Assembly (NCBI RefSeq): GCF_001941505.1
Contig: NZ_CP009248.1
Location: 620,001 to 684,000, forward strand
DNA length: 64,000 nt
Direction: 5' to 3'
DNA from: Corynebacterium sphenisci DSM 44792
GTDB taxonomy: Bacteria > Actinomycetota > Actinomycetes > Mycobacteriales > Mycobacteriaceae
Part shown: positions 6,192 through 15,175 of the stretch, one piece after another
How positions within the stretch are numbered: the stretch's first letter is position 1
How the letters are laid out: each line of letters starts with the position of its first letter
The notes under the pieces: generated by a model
What the model saw: only the letters and a program-made list of their open reading frames with translations
Told to the model about the DNA's origin: nothing
Database searches by the model: none
Position numbers and translations under genes: made by a program

Positions 6192-7496
6192 GTGAACACC
6201 CCCGACGCCACCGCCGCCCCCGACGCCGCCGGGGCGAGCGCGCCCGCCCGCCCCGCCGACACCGTCGCCGTGCCCGAGGGCCACGTCACCGCCGTGGTCA
6301 CCGCCGACGGCCCCGACCGCCCCGGCGTCTCCGCCGCCTTCTTCCGGGTGCTCGCCGCGCACCAGGTGCAGCTGCTCGACGTGGAGCAGTCCGTGTTCCG
6401 CCGGCGGCTCTCCCTGGGCGCGCTCATCGGGGTGGACCCGGGGCGGCTGGGCGTCCTCGCCGAGGGCCTCACCGAGACCCTGCGCGACCGGGGCATGGCC
6501 GTGGAGGTCACCACCGAGGGCGTGGACGCCATCCGGCAGGCCTCCACCCACGCGGTGGTGGTGCTCGGCAACCCCCTGGAGGCCTCCGACATCTCCCGGA
6601 TCGGCCAGGTGCTCGCCGACTACGGGGCGAACATCGACACCATCCGGGGCATCGCCGACTACCCGGTCACCGGCCTGGAGCTGAAGGTCACCATCGCCAA
6701 CCCGCGCCCCGGCGGGGGCGTGCCGCTGCGCAAGGCCCTCGCCGAGCTGGCCGGGGAATCCGCGGTGGACATCGCCATCGAGCGCGAGGGCCTGGCCCGC
6801 CGCTCCAAGCGCCTGATCTGCTTCGACGTGGACTCCACGCTCATCACCGGGGAGGTCATCGAGATGCTCGCCGCGCACGCCGGCCGGGAGGCCGAGGTCG
6901 CCGCGGTCACCGAGCGGGCCATGCGCGGCGAACTCGACTTCGCCGAATCCCTGCACGAGCGGGTCGCCGCCCTGGCCGGACTGCCCGAGTCGGTGCTCGA
7001 CGAGGTCGCCGAGTCCATCCGGCTCACCCCCGGGGCGCGCACCACCATCCGCACCCTCAAGCGCCTGGGCTACAAGGCCGGGGCGGTCTCCGGCGGGTTC
7101 ATCCAGATCCTGGAGCCCCTGGCGAAGGACCTCGGCCTGGACTTCTACCGGGCGAACACCCTGGAGGTGGTCGACGGCCGGCTCACCGGGCGGGTCGTCG
7201 GCGACATCATCGACCGGGAGGAGAAGGCGCGCAGCCTGCGCCGCTTCGCCGAGGAGTCCGGGCTCGGCATGCACCAGACGGTGGCCGTCGGCGACGGCGC
7301 CAACGACATCGACATGCTCTCCGTGGCCGGCCTGGGCATCGCCTTCAACGCGAAACCGGCGCTGAAGGAGGTGGCGGACACCTCGGTGAACAACCCCTTC
7401 CTGGACGAGGTGCTCTTCTTCCTGGGCATCGCCCGGGAGGAGATCGACCAGGCCGACCGGGAGGACGGCACCGCGCGGCGGGTGCCGCTGGGCTGA
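6192..7496 (+). CDS. serB: Phosphoserine phosphatase SerB
   Basis: Last enzyme of the phosphorylated serine pathway: it hydrolyses O-phosphoserine to serine in the cytoplasm. The 434-residue protein has two N-terminal ACT-like regulatory modules (about residues 30-190), then the HAD phosphatase core: nucleophile Asp212 and acid/base Asp214 in FDVDSTLI, AVSGGF (about 303), and GDGANDIDML (about 366). The start is GTG 6192, supported by the GATAAT hexamer 7 nt upstream; in-frame codons further upstream read into the ctaD terminator. The frame ends in a 1-bp overlap with the next gene, so the two are cotranscribed. ACT domains imply serine feedback, as in mycobacterial SerB2. Confidence 0.93.
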   Translation: MNTPDATAAPDAAGASAPARPADTVAVPEGHVTAVVTADGPDRPGVSAAFFRVLAAHQVQLLDVEQSVFRRRLSLGALIGVDPGRLGVLAEGLTETLRDRGMAVEVTTEGVDAIRQASTHAVVVLGNPLEASDISRIGQVLADYGANIDTIRGIADYPVTGLELKVTIANPRPGGGVPLRKALAELAGESAVDIAIEREGLARRSKRLICFDVDSTLITGEVIEMLAAHAGREAEVAAVTERAMRGELDFAESLHERVAALAGLPESVLDEVAESIRLTPGARTTIRTLKRLGYKAGAVSGGFIQILEPLAKDLGLDFYRANTLEVVDGRLTGRVVGDIIDREEKARSLRRFAEESGLGMHQTVAVGDGANDIDMLSVAGLGIAFNAKPALKEVADTSVNNPFLDEVLFFLGIAREEIDQADREDGTARRVPLG

Positions 7497-8309: not shown

Positions 8310-9887
8310 CTAGAGGTTCTTCAGCTCCCGGCGCAGGATCTTGCCGGTGGCGGACTTGGGGATCTCCTCCAGGAAGCCCACCGCGCGGACCTTCTTGTAG
8401 GGGGCGACCCGGTCCTCGACGAAGTCCATGATCTCCTCGGCGAGCCGATCCGAGGGCTCGTGGCCCTCCTTCAGCGCCACGTAGGCCTTGGGGATCTCCT
8501 CCCCGTCATGCTCCCGGATGACCCCGACGCAGCCGGCGTCGGCCACCGCCGGATGCCGCAGCAGCACGTCCTCCAGCTCCGCCGGCGGCACCTGGTAGCC
8601 CTTGTACTTGATGAGCTCCTTGAAGCGGTCCACGATGTAGACGTTGCCCTCGGCGTCGAGCTCGGCCATGTCCCCGGTGCGCAGCCAGCCGTCGCCGGGC
8701 AGGGTGGCCCGGTTGGCCTCCTCGTTGTTGAGGTAGCCGGCCATCACCTGGGGCCCGCGGATCCACAGCTCGCCCGGGGCGGAGTGGCCGGAGTCGGGCA
8801 CCCCGATCTCGGGCAGCGCCTCATCGGCGACGTCGACGATCTTGTACTCGGTGTTCGCCACCGCCCGGCCGATGGAGTCCAGGGGCGCGTCATGGCCGAT
8901 CCGCAGATGGGTCACCGGGGAGGACTCGGTCATCCCGAAGCCCTGCGCCATGGTGCAGCCGACCCGCTCCTCCACGGCCTTGGCCAGGTCGTTCTGCAGC
9001 GGCGCCGCCCCGGAGAGCACCACCTCCAGGCTGGACAGGTCGAACTGGTCCACCGCCGGGTGCTTGGCCAGGGCCACCGCGATCGGCGGGGCGACGAAGG
9101 CGAAGCGCACCTTGTAGTCGGCGATGATGCCGAGGAAGGAGCCGAAGTCGAACTGGCCCATGGTGTACTGGGTGGCCCGCTTGTACAGGCACATGTTGAG
9201 CAGCGCGGTGAGCCCGTAGATGTGGAAGAAGGGCAGCACGGTCACCGTGGGGGTCTCCTCGGTGAGGGCGTCCCCGGCGGCCATCGAGGCCTGCACGATG
9301 TTGCTGGTCAGGTTGCGGTGGGTGAGCTGCACGCCCTTGGGCACCCCGGTGGTGCCGGAGGAGAAGGGGATCACCGCCACCGCGTCGGGGTCGATGTCCA
9401 CCTCGGGGGCGGGGTGGCCCTCGGCGAGGATCTCGCCCATGCCGTGCACGCCGGTCAGGCCGATGATCCGCTCGGCGGGCAGGCCGGCGTTCTCCGCGCC
9501 GATGGTGCCCGCCCAGCCGATCGCGGAGGTGGTGAGCATGGTGGTGGCCCCGGCGACGCGCAGCTGCTTCTCCACGTCCTCGGTGGTGGCCATGGAGGCC
9601 ACCGTGGTGCAGATCGCGCCGGCGCGGAGCACCCCGTGGAAGGCCACGGCGAAGGTGGTGGAGTTCGGGCAGTGCAGGGCGACCACGTCGCCCGGGCGCA
9701 CCCCGCGGGCGGCGAGCGCCCCGGCGAAGGCCTCCACATCGGCCTTCAGCTCGGCGAAGGTGACCTCGGCGCCGGAGTCGGCGATGGCCACCTTGTCCCG
9801 GTGCCGCTCGTCGATTTCGCCGAAGATCAGGTCGAAGACGCTGCACTCCGGCATCGGGTGGTTCATGATCTGGGCGCTGATCGGCAT
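8310..9887 (-). CDS. Acyl-CoA ligase, 4-coumarate:CoA ligase-like (FadD family)
   Basis: An ANL-superfamily adenylating enzyme that should activate a carboxylic acid to its CoA thioester through an acyl-AMP. The 525-residue product has the AMP/phosphate loop SSGTTGVPKG (176-185), the GMTESSP motif, the A8 hinge region WLRTGDMAEL followed by DRFKELIKYKGYQVPPAELE, and the terminal lysine in KSATGKILRREL. ATG 9887 is preceded by GAGGAGC; the frame is open for 22 more codons, but those cover the promoter. It is divergent from an SDR/ACAD/kinase-like operon and shares a 190-bp control region with it, so it probably supplies that pathway's CoA ester. The acid used cannot be read from sequence; the fold resembles 4CL-like enzymes rather than long-chain FadD. 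Confidence 0.88.
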   Translation of the reverse strand: MPISAQIMNHPMPECSVFDLIFGEIDERHRDKVAIADSGAEVTFAELKADVEAFAGALAARGVRPGDVVALHCPNSTTFAVAFHGVLRAGAICTTVASMATTEDVEKQLRVAGATTMLTTSAIGWAGTIGAENAGLPAERIIGLTGVHGMGEILAEGHPAPEVDIDPDAVAVIPFSSGTTGVPKGVQLTHRNLTSNIVQASMAAGDALTEETPTVTVLPFFHIYGLTALLNMCLYKRATQYTMGQFDFGSFLGIIADYKVRFAFVAPPIAVALAKHPAVDQFDLSSLEVVLSGAAPLQNDLAKAVEERVGCTMAQGFGMTESSPVTHLRIGHDAPLDSIGRAVANTEYKIVDVADEALPEIGVPDSGHSAPGELWIRGPQVMAGYLNNEEANRATLPGDGWLRTGDMAELDAEGNVYIVDRFKELIKYKGYQVPPAELEDVLLRHPAVADAGCVGVIREHDGEEIPKAYVALKEGHEPSDRLAEEIMDFVEDRVAPYKKVRAVGFLEEIPKSATGKILRRELKNL

Positions 9888-9938
9888 GGTGCTCCTCGGG
9901 GGTCGGCGGCGCCGGCGGGCGGGATGTTCCGCCGGCAA

Positions 9939-9954
9939 AGTGATGCGCATCACC
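9939..9954. promoter_or_regulatory. GlxR/CRP-like operator 1 in divergent promoter region
   Basis: AGTGATGCGCATCACC contains a perfect 14-bp palindrome (9940-9953) of the form GTGA-N6-TCAC, the core of the corynebacterial cAMP-GlxR site. It lies just downstream of TAGGGT (9952-9957, minus strand), a likely -10 for the ligase gene, a position typical of repression. Confidence 0.45.
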
Positions 9955-10007
9955 CTACCCCGGAACCGGGGTCACGGGGGTGGAATCGACGCATGGGAAA
10001 ACAAAAC

Positions 10008-10023
10008 AGTGACCGGGATCACG
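10008..10023. promoter_or_regulatory. GlxR/CRP-like operator 2 in divergent promoter region
   Basis: AGTGACCGGGATCACG again has GTGA-N6-TCAC. It overlaps a possible -35 (GTGACC, 10009-10014) that stands 18 bp before TAGGGT (10033-10038), the likely -10 of the SDR operon. The two sites are 69 bp apart, about six and a half helical turns. Confidence 0.45.
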
Positions 10024-10077
10024 AATCCTCACTAGGGTGAGGGCCGACCCACCTTCCGCGAACCCCGAGGACCGCAC

Positions 10078-10887
10078 ATGATCTCCCACGACTTCACCGG
10101 GCGCGTCGCGCTCATCACCGGCGGCACCCGCGGCATCGGCCGCGCCACCGCCGAACTGCTCGCCGCCGCCGGCGCCCGGGTGGCGCTGACCTCCCGCTCC
10201 GCCGGGGCCGCGGCGGCCGCCGCGGAGGAGATCGCCGCCGCCGCCGGGGTGGACCCGGCGATGGTCACCGGGCATGGCGCGCACGCCGCGGACCCGGACG
10301 CCGCCGATGCCGCCGCCGCCGCGGCGGCCGCGGCGCACGGCCGGCTGGACATCCTGGTGAACAACGCCGGCACCAACCCCGCCTACGGGCCGCTCACCCG
10401 CCAGCCGCAGGCCGCCCTGGACAAGACCATGGCGGTCAACGCCCTGGCCCCGGTGTCCTGGGCCCGCGCCGCGGTGGATCACGGCCTGGGCGCGCACCCG
10501 GGGGCGGCGATCGTCAACGTCTCCTCCATCGGGGCGCTGACGGTGGAGGACGGGCTCGGCGCCTATGACGCGGCGAAGGCGGCGCTGCTGCACATCACCC
10601 GGCAGCTGGCCCGGGAGCTGGCGCCGGCGGTGCGGGTCAACGCGGTCTCCCCGGGCATCGTGCGCACCCGGCTGTCCGAGGCTCTGTGGTCCGGCCGGGA
10701 GGCCGCGGTGGCGGCGACCACCCCGCTGGGCCGGCTCGGTGAACCCGCCGACGTCGCCGCCGCCATCGCCTTCCTCGCCGGCGAGGCCGCCGCCTGGATC
10801 ACCGGGGCGAACCTGGTCATCGACGGCGGGCAGCTGATCGGGGTCGGCGCCCCCGAGGTCGCCGGGGCCCCCGGGGCCGGGGCGTAA
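10078..10887 (+). CDS. Short-chain dehydrogenase/reductase of the acyl-CoA cluster
   Basis: Classical SDR of 269 residues, expected to interconvert a hydroxyl and a keto group with NAD(P)(H). Visible motifs are the dinucleotide loop TGGTRGIG (14-21), NNAG, the catalytic serine in NVSS, and Tyr163-x3-Lys167 in YDAAK, with the C-terminal WITGANLVIDGGQ typical of FabG-like enzymes. ATG 10078 follows CCGAGGACC. It is the first gene of a tight operon with an acyl-CoA dehydrogenase and a phosphotransferase; in the levulinate pathway of Pseudomonas (lvaABCDE) an SDR acts in the same setting to make the 4-hydroxyacyl-CoA. That role is an inference from context. Confidence 0.85.
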   Translation: MISHDFTGRVALITGGTRGIGRATAELLAAAGARVALTSRSAGAAAAAAEEIAAAAGVDPAMVTGHGAHAADPDAADAAAAAAAAAHGRLDILVNNAGTNPAYGPLTRQPQAALDKTMAVNALAPVSWARAAVDHGLGAHPGAAIVNVSSIGALTVEDGLGAYDAAKAALLHITRQLARELAPAVRVNAVSPGIVRTRLSEALWSGREAAVAATTPLGRLGEPADVAAAIAFLAGEAAAWITGANLVIDGGQLIGVGAPEVAGAPGAGA

Positions 10888-10897
10888 GGGGGCCGCC

Positions 10898-12124
10898 GTG
10901 GATTTCGCGCACAGCGCGCGGGCCCGGGCCCTGCACACCGAGCTCGCCGAGTTCATCGACACCCGGGTGCTGCCCGCGGAGGCGATCGCCGCCGCCCAGA
11001 TCGCCGGCTCCGGGAACCCGCACCACCATCCGCCGGTGCTGGAGGAGCTCAAGGCCGAGGCCCGCGAGCGCGGGCTGTGGAACCTCTTCCACCCGCACCC
11101 GGGCGCCGGCCCCGGCCGGCCGGGGCTCAGCAACGTGGAGTACGCGCCCCTGGCGGAGCTGATGGGGCGCAGCCCGCACCTGGCGCCGGAGGCGTGCAAC
11201 TGCAACGCCCCGGACACCGGGAACATGGAGATCCTGGAGCTCTTCGGCACCGGGGAGCACCGGCGGCGCTGGCTGGAGCCGCTGCTGGCCGGGGAGATCC
11301 GCTCCGCGTTCTGCATGACCGAACCCGGGGTGGCCTCCTCCGACGCCACCAACATCGCCATGGCCTTCCGCAGGGTCGACGGCGGCTGGCGGCTCACCGG
11401 GCGCAAATGGTTCGCCTCCAATGCGATGCACCCGCATCTCGCGGTGCTCATCGTCATGGGCGTCACCGACCCGGACGCCGACCCGCACCGCCGGCAGTCC
11501 ATGCTGGTGGTGCCCGCCGACGCCCCCGGGGTGCGGGTGCTGCGCAATCTCCCGGTGTTCGGCTACCACGACCGGGAGGGTCATGCGGTGGTGGAGTTCG
11601 ACGGGGTCTTCGTCCCCGACGCCGATGTGCTCGCCGGGGCGGGGGAGGGCTTCGCCATCGCCCAGGCCCGGCTCGGCCCGGGCCGGATCCACCATGCGAT
11701 GCGCTGCATCGGGATGGCCGAGCGGGCCCTGGCGCTGCTCTGCCGGCGGGCCGGCGAACGGGAGACCTTCGGCCGGCGCCTGGCGGACCGGGACAATATC
11801 CGGGACTGGATCGCCGAATCCCGGGTGGACATCGAGATGGCCCGGCTGCTCACCCTCAAGGCGGCCTGGCTGATGGACACCGCCGGCAACCGGGCCGCGG
11901 CCCAGGAGATCGCCGCGATCAAGGTCGCCGCGCCCCGGGCGGCGCTGCGGGTGGTGGACCGGGCGATCCAGGTGCACGGCGGCGCCGGGGTCACCGACGA
12001 GACCCCGCTGGCGTCCTTCTGGGCCGGGTTGCGCGCGCTGCGCTTGGCCGACGGCCCCGATGAGGTGCACCTGCGCACCATCGCCCGGGCCGAACTGCGC
12101 GCCGGGCGGGGGGAGGTCCGGTGA
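10898..12124 (+). CDS. Acyl-CoA dehydrogenase, ACAD10/ACAD11-like
   Basis: FAD-dependent acyl-CoA dehydrogenase family member of 408 residues. It has the substrate/FAD segment CMTEPGVASSDATN (about 139-152) and the C-terminal VHGGAGVTDETPL...LRLADGPDEVH signature, which is closest to the dehydrogenase part of animal ACAD10/ACAD11 and of bacterial LvaC. Those enzymes eliminate phosphate from 4-phosphoacyl-CoA instead of doing ordinary beta-oxidation (established for the named proteins). The GTG start at 10898 is 10 bp after the SDR stop, with only a weak GGGGG site. The stop overlaps the GTG of the next gene by 4 bp, which pairs it with the kinase-like protein. Confidence 0.87.
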   Translation: MDFAHSARARALHTELAEFIDTRVLPAEAIAAAQIAGSGNPHHHPPVLEELKAEARERGLWNLFHPHPGAGPGRPGLSNVEYAPLAELMGRSPHLAPEACNCNAPDTGNMEILELFGTGEHRRRWLEPLLAGEIRSAFCMTEPGVASSDATNIAMAFRRVDGGWRLTGRKWFASNAMHPHLAVLIVMGVTDPDADPHRRQSMLVVPADAPGVRVLRNLPVFGYHDREGHAVVEFDGVFVPDADVLAGAGEGFAIAQARLGPGRIHHAMRCIGMAERALALLCRRAGERETFGRRLADRDNIRDWIAESRVDIEMARLLTLKAAWLMDTAGNRAAAQEIAAIKVAAPRAALRVVDRAIQVHGGAGVTDETPLASFWAGLRALRLADGPDEVHLRTIARAELRAGRGEVR

Positions 12125-13158
12125 GCGGGGCGACGGGGGCCGCCGCCTTCGATGGGGCGCGGCTGGCCGACTGGCTCTCCGGCCTGGCCGGGGCCACCCG
12201 CGGGCCGGTCGAGCTCACCCGGCTCGGCGCCGGCCAGTCCAACCTCACCTACCGGGCCGTCGACGCCGCCGGGGCCTCGGTGGTGGTGCGCCGGCCCCCG
12301 CTGGGCCGGCTCGCCGCCTCCGCGCACGACGTCACCCGGGAGGGCCGGGTGATGGCCGCCCTGGCGGGTACCGCGGTGCCGGTGCCGGCCATCCTCGGCA
12401 TCGCCGAGGCCGGCGCCGTCGCGGACGCCCCCGTGGTGGCGATGGCGGAGGTGCACGGGGTGGCGCTGACCTCGCCCTGGCAGGCCCAGGCGATGACCCC
12501 GGCGGCCCGCGCCGCCGCCGCGGACGGCCTGGTCGACGCGATGGTCGCGATCCACCGGGTGGATCTGGGGGCCACCGGCCTGGCCGGCCTGGCCTCCCAT
12601 GAGCCCTACGCGCCGCGGCAGCTGCGCCGCTGGTCGGCGCAGTGGGAGCGCACCCGCACCCGGGAGCAGCCGGTGGTCGAGGAGCTCACCGCCCGGCTCG
12701 CCGCGGCGGCGCCGACCCGGCGGCGCACCGTGCTCGTGCACGGGGACCTGCACCTGGGCAACCTGGTCGTCGGCGGCGCCGACGGGCGGGTGCTGGCGGT
12801 GCTGGACTGGGAGCTGGCCACCCTCGGCGATCCGCTGGCCGACGTGGGCACCCTGCTGTCCTACTGGCCGGAGCGCGACGGGCTGGTGCTGCCCGGGTTC
12901 GCCGCCGCCCTGGAGGAGGGCTTCCCGGACGGGGCCCATCTTGCGGCCCGCTACCTGGAGGCCACCGGGGAGGACCCGGCGGCGCTGGCCTACTGGCACG
13001 CCCTGGGCCTGTGGAAGGTGGCGATCATCGCCGAGGGGGTGCTGCGCCGGGTGCGGGACATGCCCGCCAACGCCGCCCCCGCCGGGGCGCCCACGGTGGA
13101 GCTGGTCGACGCCCTGATCGAGCACGCCCGCGCCGCCGCGGACCGCGCCGGGCTCTAG
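12121..13158 (+). CDS. Aminoglycoside phosphotransferase-like kinase (ACAD10/11 N-domain, LvaA type)
   Basis: A 345-residue protein kinase-like fold small-molecule phosphotransferase. It has a GAGQSNLTYR nucleotide loop (about 37-46), VVRRPP with the ATP-binding lysine position replaced by arginine, the Brenner motif HGDLHLGN (His207, Asp209, Asn214) and the metal-binding DWE (Asp229). This is the family of LvaA and of the N-terminal kinase domain of ACAD10/ACAD11, which phosphorylate the 4-hydroxyl of hydroxyacyl-CoA; it is not an antibiotic-resistance APH by context. It overlaps the ACAD gene by GTGA, so the two chains that are fused in animals are made here as a coupled pair. No LvaB-like small partner is present. 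Confidence 0.85.
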   Translation: MSGATGAAAFDGARLADWLSGLAGATRGPVELTRLGAGQSNLTYRAVDAAGASVVVRRPPLGRLAASAHDVTREGRVMAALAGTAVPVPAILGIAEAGAVADAPVVAMAEVHGVALTSPWQAQAMTPAARAAAADGLVDAMVAIHRVDLGATGLAGLASHEPYAPRQLRRWSAQWERTRTREQPVVEELTARLAAAAPTRRRTVLVHGDLHLGNLVVGGADGRVLAVLDWELATLGDPLADVGTLLSYWPERDGLVLPGFAAALEEGFPDGAHLAARYLEATGEDPAALAYWHALGLWKVAIIAEGVLRRVRDMPANAAPAGAPTVELVDALIEHARAAADRAGL

Positions 13159-13180
13159 CCGGCCCCGCGGGGCGGGCGGC

Positions 13181-15175
13181 TCAGCGCCGGTGCCGGGCGG
13201 CGACCAGGCGCTCCAGGGCGGCGCGGGCCACCGCCGGATCCGTGGTGCGCCACAGCGGCGGCAGGGACGCCGCCAGCCAGGGGCCGTAGCGGGCGGTGGC
13301 CAGGCGGGGGTCGAGCACGGCCACCATGCCCCGGTCCGCGACGTCCCGGAGCAGCCGGCCGGCGCCCTGGGCCAGCAGCAGCGCGGCATGCGCGGCGGAG
13401 ACCTCCATGAACCCGCTGCGCCCGGCGGCGTCGGCGGCCTCCGCCCGGGCCGAGCTGAGCGGCTCATCGGGGCGGGGGAAGGGAATCCGGTCGATCACCA
13501 CCAGGGACAGCGCCGGCCCGGGCACGTCCACGCCCTGCCACAGCGACAGGGTGCCGAAGAGGCAGGTGTTCTCCTCCGCCGCGAACCGCGCCACCAGCGC
13601 CCCGGTGGCGTCATCGCCCTGGCAGAGGATGTCGAAGGGCAGCCGGCGGCGCATCTCCGCGGCGGCGGCCTCCGCGCCGCGCCGGGAGCTGAACAGGCCC
13701 AGGGTGCGCCCGCCCGCGGCGCGGATCAGCCCCTCCAGCTCATCGAGCACCGCCGGGGCGGTGCCGTCCCGGCCCGGTTTGGGCAGATGCCGGGCGACGT
13801 AGAGGATCCCGGCCCGGGCCGGGTCGAAGGGGCTGCCCACGTCGATGCCCCGCCAGCCCGATTTCGGCAGCCCCCAGGCGGCGGCCATCGCCCGGAAATC
13901 CCCGCCCAGGGCGAGGGTGGCGGAGGTGAGCACCACCGTGTTCTCCGCGAGGAGCCGGTCCCGGAGCAGCCCGGAGACGTCCAGCGGGGCCACGTGCAGG
14001 GTGCGCCGCTCATCGAGCCACACCACGTCCTCGCCGACCGGGGCCGCCCCGCCGAGCTCGGTGAGCGCCCGCACGCAGGTGTCGTGCAGGTTCTCGCAGG
14101 TCGCCCGGACCGTCTGCCGTTCCGCGAGATCGCCCTCCCGGCTGCCCGCCAGGGCGGTCTGGGTGGCCCACAGCGCCTGGCGCAGCGCGGTGAGCGCCTC
14201 GCCCACCCCCTCCGGCAGGGCGCGCCAGCGCCCCGCCCCGGCGGTGCCGGAGGCCCCCAGCGCCTCGGCGAGCAGATCCGCGGCGTCCACCAGATCCGCC
14301 GCCTGCTCCTCCGCCCCGGCCTTCCTCGCCCGGGTGGCGGTGAGCGCCAGGGCGGCCGGGCCCAGTTCCGCGGCCGCCGCGGAGGTGACCCGCGCGACCA
14401 GCTCATGGGCCTCGTCGACCACCACCCGATGGTGCTCCGGCAGCACCGCCGCCTCCGCGAGGGCGTCGATGGCCAGCAGGGCGTGGTTGGTGACCACCAC
14501 GTCGACGTCATCGGCGGCGCGCCGGGCGCGTTCGGCGAAGCAGTCCGCGCCCATCGGGCAGCGGGCCGCGCCCACGCATTCCCGGGCGCCGACGCTGACC
14601 TGCCGCCACGCCAGATCCCGCACTCCGCGCTCCAGGGAGTCCCGGTCCCCGTCCTCGGTCTCCTCGGCCCATTCGCGCAGCCGCAGCACCTCCCGGGCGG
14701 TGCGCGACAGCGTCGCCGGGTCGATCAGATCGCCCTGGCCGTCGACCTCCCCGGGGGCGTCGGCGACGTCGGCGAGCTTCTTCCGGCACAGGTAGTTGTT
14801 GCGGCCCTTGAGGATGGCGAAGCTCGGCCGGCGCGGCAGATGCGGGCCGAGCGCCTCGGCCAGCCGGGGCAGATCCCGCTCCACCAGCTGGCGCTGCAGG
14901 GCGATGGTGGCGGTGGACACCACGGTGGGGGAGCCCTCGTCGATTGCGGCGGCCACCGCGGGCACCAGGTAGGCCAGGGATTTGCCGGTGCCGGTGCCGG
15001 CCTGCACGGCCAGGTGCCCGCCGCGGGCGAAGGCGTCGTGCACCGCCCGGGCCATCCGCACCTGCCCCTCCCGGCGGGCCCCGCCGAGGGCGGCCACGGC
15101 ATGGCCGAGCAGCTCCTCCACCCGGTCCGCGGCGGCGTCGTCGGCGCCCGCGCCGGCGGCGCCGGGATCAGACAC
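13181..15175 (-). CDS. dinG: DinG-family ATP-dependent DNA helicase
   Basis: Superfamily 2 helicase of the XPD/DinG group, 664 residues, expected to unwind DNA 5'-3' and to resolve damaged or structured DNA. Walker A is AGTGTGKS (59-66) and the DEAH box is VVDEAHEL (about 244). Four cysteines between them (LCRKK and [13 protein letters not shown]) are spaced like the iron-sulphur cluster of DinG/XPD. The C-terminal half has the QGVD and QGAGRLLR helicase motifs. The likely start is GTG 15175, which overlaps the pncB stop by 8 bp. The dinG-pncB order is the same as M. tuberculosis Rv1329c-Rv1330c. Confidence 0.9.

Follow-up and report, generated by a model that had tools for sequence, protein, structure and literature searches.

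The closest described counterparts of the locus considered here are mammalian ACAD10 and ACAD11, which are reported to phosphorylate 4-hydroxyacyl-CoAs and then to eliminate the phosphate with no outside electron acceptor (PMC11342911, PMC12440821), and the lva operon of Pseudomonas, whose LvaA and LvaC are credited in the same reports with the same two steps. Separate bacterial proteins of these two kinds, a kinase and an acyl-CoA dehydrogenase (ACAD), are described from Burkholderia pseudomallei and are reported to stand in for the domains of ACAD10 in vitro (PMC11342911). As the lva cluster of P. citronellolis is also described as lacking LvaB (PMC6692424), a split, LvaB-free kinase-dehydrogenase pair has precedent. 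Here we consider a locus in a 64,000-nucleotide stretch of the genome of Corynebacterium sphenisci DSM 44792 (contig NZ_CP009248.1, positions 620,001 to 684,000; hereafter the window), at which genes encoding an acyl-CoA ligase, a short-chain dehydrogenase/reductase (SDR), an ACAD and an APH-fold kinase adjoin, with the frames, coordinates and families that an initial annotation had given them. The ligase gene is divergent from the other three, on the minus strand, and therefore lies outside their transcript; only the SDR, ACAD and kinase genes, which we term the cassette, can share one. The cassette very probably serves to bring 4-hydroxyacyl-CoAs into beta-oxidation via phosphorylation and phosphate elimination, as its protein sequences and their relatives suggest.

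The window pair shares with mammalian ACAD11 and ACAD10 (PMC12440821, PMC11342911) the kinase type, the dehydrogenase subfamily and both catalytic aspartates, and has equivalents of the R626, H634, R637 and CoA-contacting R176 residues of ACAD11. It differs in consisting of two overlapping genes with the dehydrogenase first, whereas the mammalian enzymes are single chains with the kinase first, and in having a co-linear SDR gene and no HAD domain. With the lva operon (as cited in PMC6692424, PMC11342911, PMC12440821) the locus has in common, by class only, separate kinase, ACAD, SDR and ligase genes, but its ligase is divergent and neither LvaB nor transporter genes occur within the cluster. 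The absence of an LvaB partner, proposed at the outset, is borne out there, as the gaps of 124 bp and 10 bp (the latter between the SDR and dehydrogenase genes) and one 4-bp overlap leave no room for it, the rest of the genome not having been searched for LvaB; we therefore do not call the module an lva operon. Among other bacterial counterparts, a B. cenocepacia ACAD is 52-53% identical to the window dehydrogenase (P0003) and stands in a different gene order. A pair annotated as ACAD11/ACAD10 on plasmid 5 of Rhodococcus opacus PD630 (L084) also has ACAD followed by APH with a 4-bp overlap, at 64% and 48% identity, but no SDR homologue was detected within the fetched flanks at the threshold used.

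The kinase-dehydrogenase pair

On sequence, the dehydrogenase is clearly a member of the ACAD10/11/LvaC-like subfamily. Its best match among solved structures is 4hr3 (E 5e-124), followed by three ACAD11 sequences (4e-122 to 3e-114), after which the next of its 95 solved-structure matches, an ordinary ACAD, falls to E 6e-38. The three ACAD11 sequences we take to be those of mouse and human. PMC12440821 also suggests as much, and describes the catalytic D753 and the phosphate-binding R626, H634 and R637 as special to ACAD10/11 and LvaC, R631 being common to ACADs generally. Once ACAD11 chain numbering, which is off by one, is shifted, all five residue letters agree. The window dehydrogenase has all five (equivalent pairs in the table), its catalytic Asp replacing the usual Glu. 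Asp occupies this column in 75 of 76 family rows (the other being a gap) and is missing there from six ordinary ACADs that this genome also encodes, while the R626, H634 and R637 columns hold 75 Arg, 73 His plus two Tyr, and 75 Arg, again with one gap. All five key columns read R, R, H, R, D in 26 of 27 genus rows; the single gapped row is presumably the truncated L073. The genome yields 11 PF00441 matches including P0003, and of the other ten, seven were fetched and the six with a BLAST match compared; these six retain only the general Arg of the R631 column, and lack equivalents of R626, H634, R637 and D753. In a quick tree of 84 rows, with long outgroup branches, the dehydrogenase groups with ACAD11 and ACAD10/11-like rows, apart from the six ordinary ACADs (SH-aLRT 99). 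The ending RLADGPDEVH, noted initially, is also present.

The kinase, by its sequence, resembles the ACAD11 kinase domain and not the antibiotic kinases. Its matches to solved structures (9o56, 2e-41; 3dxp, 6.5e-41; the ACAD11 kinase domain, 2e-30) contrast with E 3e-4 only for hygromycin kinases or APH(4). The HGD-x4-N and DWE motifs were found as described, at H207-N214 and 229-231 respectively, and R166, D209 and N214 take the places of ACAD11 R176, D220 and N225. Among 102 aligned kinases the catalytic Asp is kept in 101, the Asn in 102 and the R176 equivalent in 100. The structure predicted from 32 sequences is a confident one, with a pLDDT of 92.1 and a pTM of 0.90.

The two genes are also inherited together. 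Among 242 genus genomes the dehydrogenase (at least 340 bits) occurs in 29 and the kinase (E 1e-30 or better) in 29, with both in 28 and neither in 212, leaving one genome with the dehydrogenase only and one with the kinase only (Fisher p 2e-34, a statistic that ignores kinship, and with a bit cut-off placed in a break, already visible in the scores, from 349 to 190 bits). Both exceptions look like decay: in G101 the dehydrogenase match ends at residue 232 and there is no kinase, and in G070 (L226) a kinase, a TetR gene and a ligase remain at a site with no SDR or dehydrogenase match, a distant ACAD-kinase pair lying elsewhere (L074). The order SDR-ACAD-APH is identical in all 26 genus loci, window included, that carry a full-length close dehydrogenase (at least 600 bits), the SDRs of L045 and L046 being detected in only one of two neighbourhood comparisons. 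Taken together, residues, tree and co-occurrence place the pair in the ACAD10/11-LvaA/LvaC kind, as the initial annotation held, as far as ACAD11 represents that kind.

Several variants of the module were seen in the genus. The decayed module at L073 (8035-9672, minus strand) has a dehydrogenase whose match ends at residue 232, and a kinase was not detected there. A deeper variant in G070 and G071 (L074, 6265-9144, minus; L075, 7985-10863, plus) has an ACAD of 35-37% identity with the same diagnostic residues, adjoining APH and SDR genes, and a second lineage in G019 and G047 (L071, L072), closest to 4hr3, has the order AraC regulator, ACAD, SDR, APH.

Within the proposed route, the CoA thioester would be made by a ligase, whether the divergent one or another; the SDR would reduce 4-oxoacyl-CoA to 4-hydroxyacyl-CoA, or work one step downstream; the APH-fold kinase would phosphorylate the 4-hydroxyl with ATP; and the ACAD10/11-type flavoenzyme, by oxidation, elimination and back-reduction, would release phosphate with no net electron transfer to yield trans-2-enoyl-CoA, the degradation of which host hydratases, 3-hydroxyacyl-CoA dehydrogenase and thiolases would complete. 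The host genome (2.59 Mb, a single contig) encodes members of the hydratase, thiolase, 3-hydroxyacyl-CoA dehydrogenase and electron transfer flavoprotein families; its cytochrome oxidase subunit has as best solved match 7q21, from Corynebacterium glutamicum, in line with the genus. What was observed is the order of the genes, their co-inheritance, the subfamilies and active-site residues of the proteins, and the presence of these downstream families; from relatives we infer the reactions and their order. For the SDR, our preference is an LvaD-like reduction of 4-oxoacyl-CoA, the alternative being a 3-hydroxyacyl-CoA dehydrogenase; a reduction of 4-ketolaurate, giving 4-hydroxydodecanoate, has been reported for Micrococcus luteus (PMC7411827).

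The features of the locus are collected below. The overlap of the dehydrogenase and kinase genes is the GTGA initially described (12121-12124). An inverted repeat, CCTCAC-tagg-GTGAGG, lies at 10027-10042 in the ligase/SDR intergenic region, and a promoter and terminator scan of 9850-13300 found nothing.

Table 1. Genes and intergenic region of the window locus, in window coordinates, with family assignments and residues equivalent to those of ACAD11.
Feature	Coordinates	Strand	Basis
Acyl-CoA ligase (P0001; AMP-binding, 4CL/FadD-like)	8310..9953	minus	PF00501 and PF13193
Ligase/SDR divergent intergenic region	9954..10077		124 bp
SDR oxidoreductase (P0002; DHRS4/FabG-like)	10078..10887	plus	family matches
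Acyl-CoA dehydrogenase (P0003), ACAD10/11/LvaC subfamily	10898..12124	plus	R258, R263, H266, R269, D385 (ACAD11 R626, R631, H634, R637, D753)
APH-fold kinase (P0004), ACAD10/11-kinase type	12121..13158	plus	R166, D209, N214

The divergent ligase and a putative TetR regulon

Whether the module possesses its own ligase, as initially claimed, is answered differently by different lineages. The ligase is separable from the cassette: six related genomes (L228-L233) have ctaD, serB, one further gene, the ligase, dinG and pncB in a row, the cassette being absent from the interval that separates the ligase from dinG, and L234 has a similar cassette-free arrangement with a gap before dinG. The window ligase occupies this same site (ctaD-serB-LIG-dinG), and its closest relatives, 71-74% identical, are all in cassette-free genomes except that of G173. 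A tree of 56 ligases resolves three groups. One consists of ligases at the core site; another is a paralogue clade in which 20 of 24 rows adjoin the cassette; the third, to which the window ligase and 14 others belong, sits at the core site both with and without the cassette. Elsewhere in the 26-locus set, 23 of the 25 relatives have an opposite-strand ligase within the fetched flank; the two others are L046, which starts where its contig does, and L056, which lacks one. Among solved structures the window ligase is nearest to 4-coumarate-type ligases, with an insect long-chain synthetase and luciferases ranking after them. By alignment, its start may lie at the inner ATG at 9887: of its 20 best relatives, 10 align from residues 4-17 and 10 from no earlier than residue 19. 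In G226 a lone kinase (49% identity) adjoins a core-site ligase (L227, 6120-8729), apart from that genome's full module.

In the genus loci, further evidence comes from a palindrome, TGAATC-N2-GATTCA. A search of 63 stretches totalling 911,263 bases, among them the first 24 kb of the window, and allowing a single mismatch, found it at 37 sites, compared with 0 to 2 sites for each of six scrambled palindromes of the same composition. The SDR gene has exact copies ahead of it in 17 of the 26 loci. Counting sites no more than 300 bp upstream and with at most one mismatch, the palindrome marks 12 of 24 cassette-linked ligases, several of these 12 being close kin, as against none of nine in L228-L236; in 11 of those 12 loci there is also a separate SDR site, and L047 has a single site between the two genes. 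In four loci (L051, L054, L057 and L060) the ligase gene, lying kilobases off in convergent orientation, nonetheless has its own copy. Twenty further ligase regions (L237-L256) contain two sites only, one in L237 and one in L238, and in both cases the site is not immediately ahead of the ligase gene. By way of example, L045 has palindromes at 6445 and 7161, sites before the SDR and TetR/ligase genes occurring among the genus loci L045-L069. In the window, no palindrome within two mismatches occurs in the 64 kb, and the best match in the ligase/SDR intergenic region has four mismatches.

Together these observations bear on an account in which the divergent ligase is unrelated to the cassette: it would be a core ligase for fatty acids, fixed in its position, and the cassette would have landed beside it or been lost from the relatives. 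We take this seriously without quite favouring it: the cassette-free genomes with their 71-74% identical ligases, and the lack of a palindrome at the window ligase, speak for it, whereas in other lineages a ligase paralogue travels with the cassette, and the palindromes upstream of cassette-linked ligases, several of which are close kin, speak against it. The claim of an own ligase is supported in part: the opposite-strand ligases of relatives and the shared palindrome favour it, and it is weakened at the window by the retention of the same site without a cassette and by the 4-coumarate-type relatives.

In 24 of the 26 loci the SDR is preceded by a gene belonging to one TetR cluster, and in 18 of these the two are adjacent; the one member of this cluster that was scanned is TetR_N by Pfam. 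The palindrome is likely a TetR operator. No gene of this cluster lies upstream of the SDR in the window or in L047, the rest of the host genome not having been searched for a regulator, and the sole match to the genus regulators within the window is weak (near 35.5 kb, E 3e-6). We infer a TetR regulon in the genus that would have been lost or replaced at the window locus.

In 14 of 32 stretches a gene cluster, two members of which were scanned and are histidine phosphatases, lies near the module (L054, 4797-6445, minus strand, and 13 further genus loci), and annotated histidine phosphatases also adjoin it in Azoarcus, Azospirillum and Deinococcus (L077, L080, L082). A histidine phosphatase is likewise reported for P. 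citronellolis (PMC6692424). These enzymes may clear dead-end 4-phospho acids.

Tentatively, and with more doubt than conviction, we propose that Corynebacterium-type bacteria possess a regulon devoted to fatty acids with a 4-hydroxy or 4-oxo group, the relatives of gamma-lactones, in which a TetR repressor would act at palindromes before the ligase and the cassette, the SDR would reduce 4-oxoacyl-CoA, and a histidine phosphatase would often clear dead-end products. The window species would have lost the local regulator and operator, and its cassette would therefore be expressed differently.

Substrates and competing readings

The role of the cassette in 4-hydroxyacyl-CoA degradation has still to be weighed against other substrates. 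It is unlikely that the set constitutes the levulinate pathway proper, with C5 levulinate as substrate and the ligase and SDR in the parts of LvaE and LvaD. The same four enzyme classes are indeed those of LvaE, LvaD, LvaC and LvaA, with the roles given in PMC6692424, where the P. citronellolis cluster is likewise described without LvaB; but neither LvaB nor a transporter lies within the cluster here, and the solved relatives of the ligase are of 4-coumarate and then insect long-chain and luciferase type. Moreover, chain length is unreadable from sequence, ACAD10 being reported to prefer shorter and ACAD11 longer chains (PMC11342911).

We consider it very improbable that the kinase acts on some other hydroxylated lipid or CoA ester, such as a sterol side chain, with the dehydrogenase removing that phosphate. 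Foldseek ranks 25-hydroxysteroid kinase second after 3dxp in the kinase search, and the phosphosteroid lyase partnering that enzyme is described as unknown in 2021 (PMC8449060). In sequence, however, that enzyme is matched weakly, at E 7.6e-6 and with some 22% identity when the structures are superposed, compared with 2e-30 for the kinase domain of ACAD11; the dehydrogenase bears the full ACAD11 residue set, and none of 20 scanned neighbour proteins of relatives is a steroid enzyme by Pfam. An ordinary ACAD and an aminoglycoside-resistance-type kinase that are neighbours by chance, a reading already disfavoured and compatible with the broad families that are all Pfam and NCBIfam name, can practically be dismissed, given the co-occurrence, fixed order and diagnostic residues, and given that none of seven listed NCBIfam models, antibiotic kinases included, reaches its cut-off for the kinase (39.2 against 205 bits for APH(3'), 19 against 725 for APH(4)-Ia).

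Several points nevertheless weigh against a role in 4-hydroxyacyl-CoA degradation. The CoA contact R86 of the ACAD11 kinase, beside the alphaC Glu, is not placeable: across 32 kinases R73 is invariant and E74 nearly so, but position 86 of the ACAD11 fragment, in the numbering used, is F. As 25-hydroxysteroid kinase is among the solved APH-fold relatives, kinases of this fold can serve other alcohols. In the comparison it is ACAD11, in place of the P. putida proteins, that stands for the ACAD10/11-LvaA/LvaC kind, and the likeness of the SDR and ligase to LvaD and LvaE is at superfamily level only. Lastly, oleate hydratase, considered as a general source of 4-hydroxy acids, is unsupported: it is absent from the host genome, and of the 22 among 242 genus genomes that have it, five overlap with the 29 dehydrogenase genomes (Fisher p 0.16, or 0.06 with the 19 full-length copies).

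Distribution and significance

The rarity implied by the initial annotation was overstated, as the kinase-dehydrogenase pair is very widespread in bacteria. The dehydrogenase was matched in 134 plasmid records (E 1e-60) and, with an ACAD alignment, in at least 594 confirmed genome stretches, of which the best 80 were taken as loci (74 of them actinobacterial); a B. cenocepacia homologue was matched at E 1e-120 in 119 of 244 genomes of Marinobacter's order. Of 94 loci, 14 from plasmids and 80 from genomes and each selected by its dehydrogenase, 70 have a kinase homologue in their flanks. The lvaABC-like order of kinase, small ORF and ACAD was found in none of 12 regions from Marinobacter's order, where a divergent LvaA could escape the queries; seven of these regions had no kinase match, and five had the order ACAD-SDR-kinase or ACAD-kinase-SDR.

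No description of such a pathway in Corynebacterium was found among open-licence papers, in keeping with the initial claim. The enzymes and their logic are already known, the route having been established for a Pseudomonas and for mammals; what is new is a coherent unit in this genus. Being split, co-inherited and probably co-regulated, it makes available a kinase and a dehydrogenase that are small and free-standing, for work on mechanism, and it predicts that some members of the genus would degrade 4-hydroxy fatty acids and gamma-lactones, compounds encountered as flavour compounds and lipid-peroxidation products.

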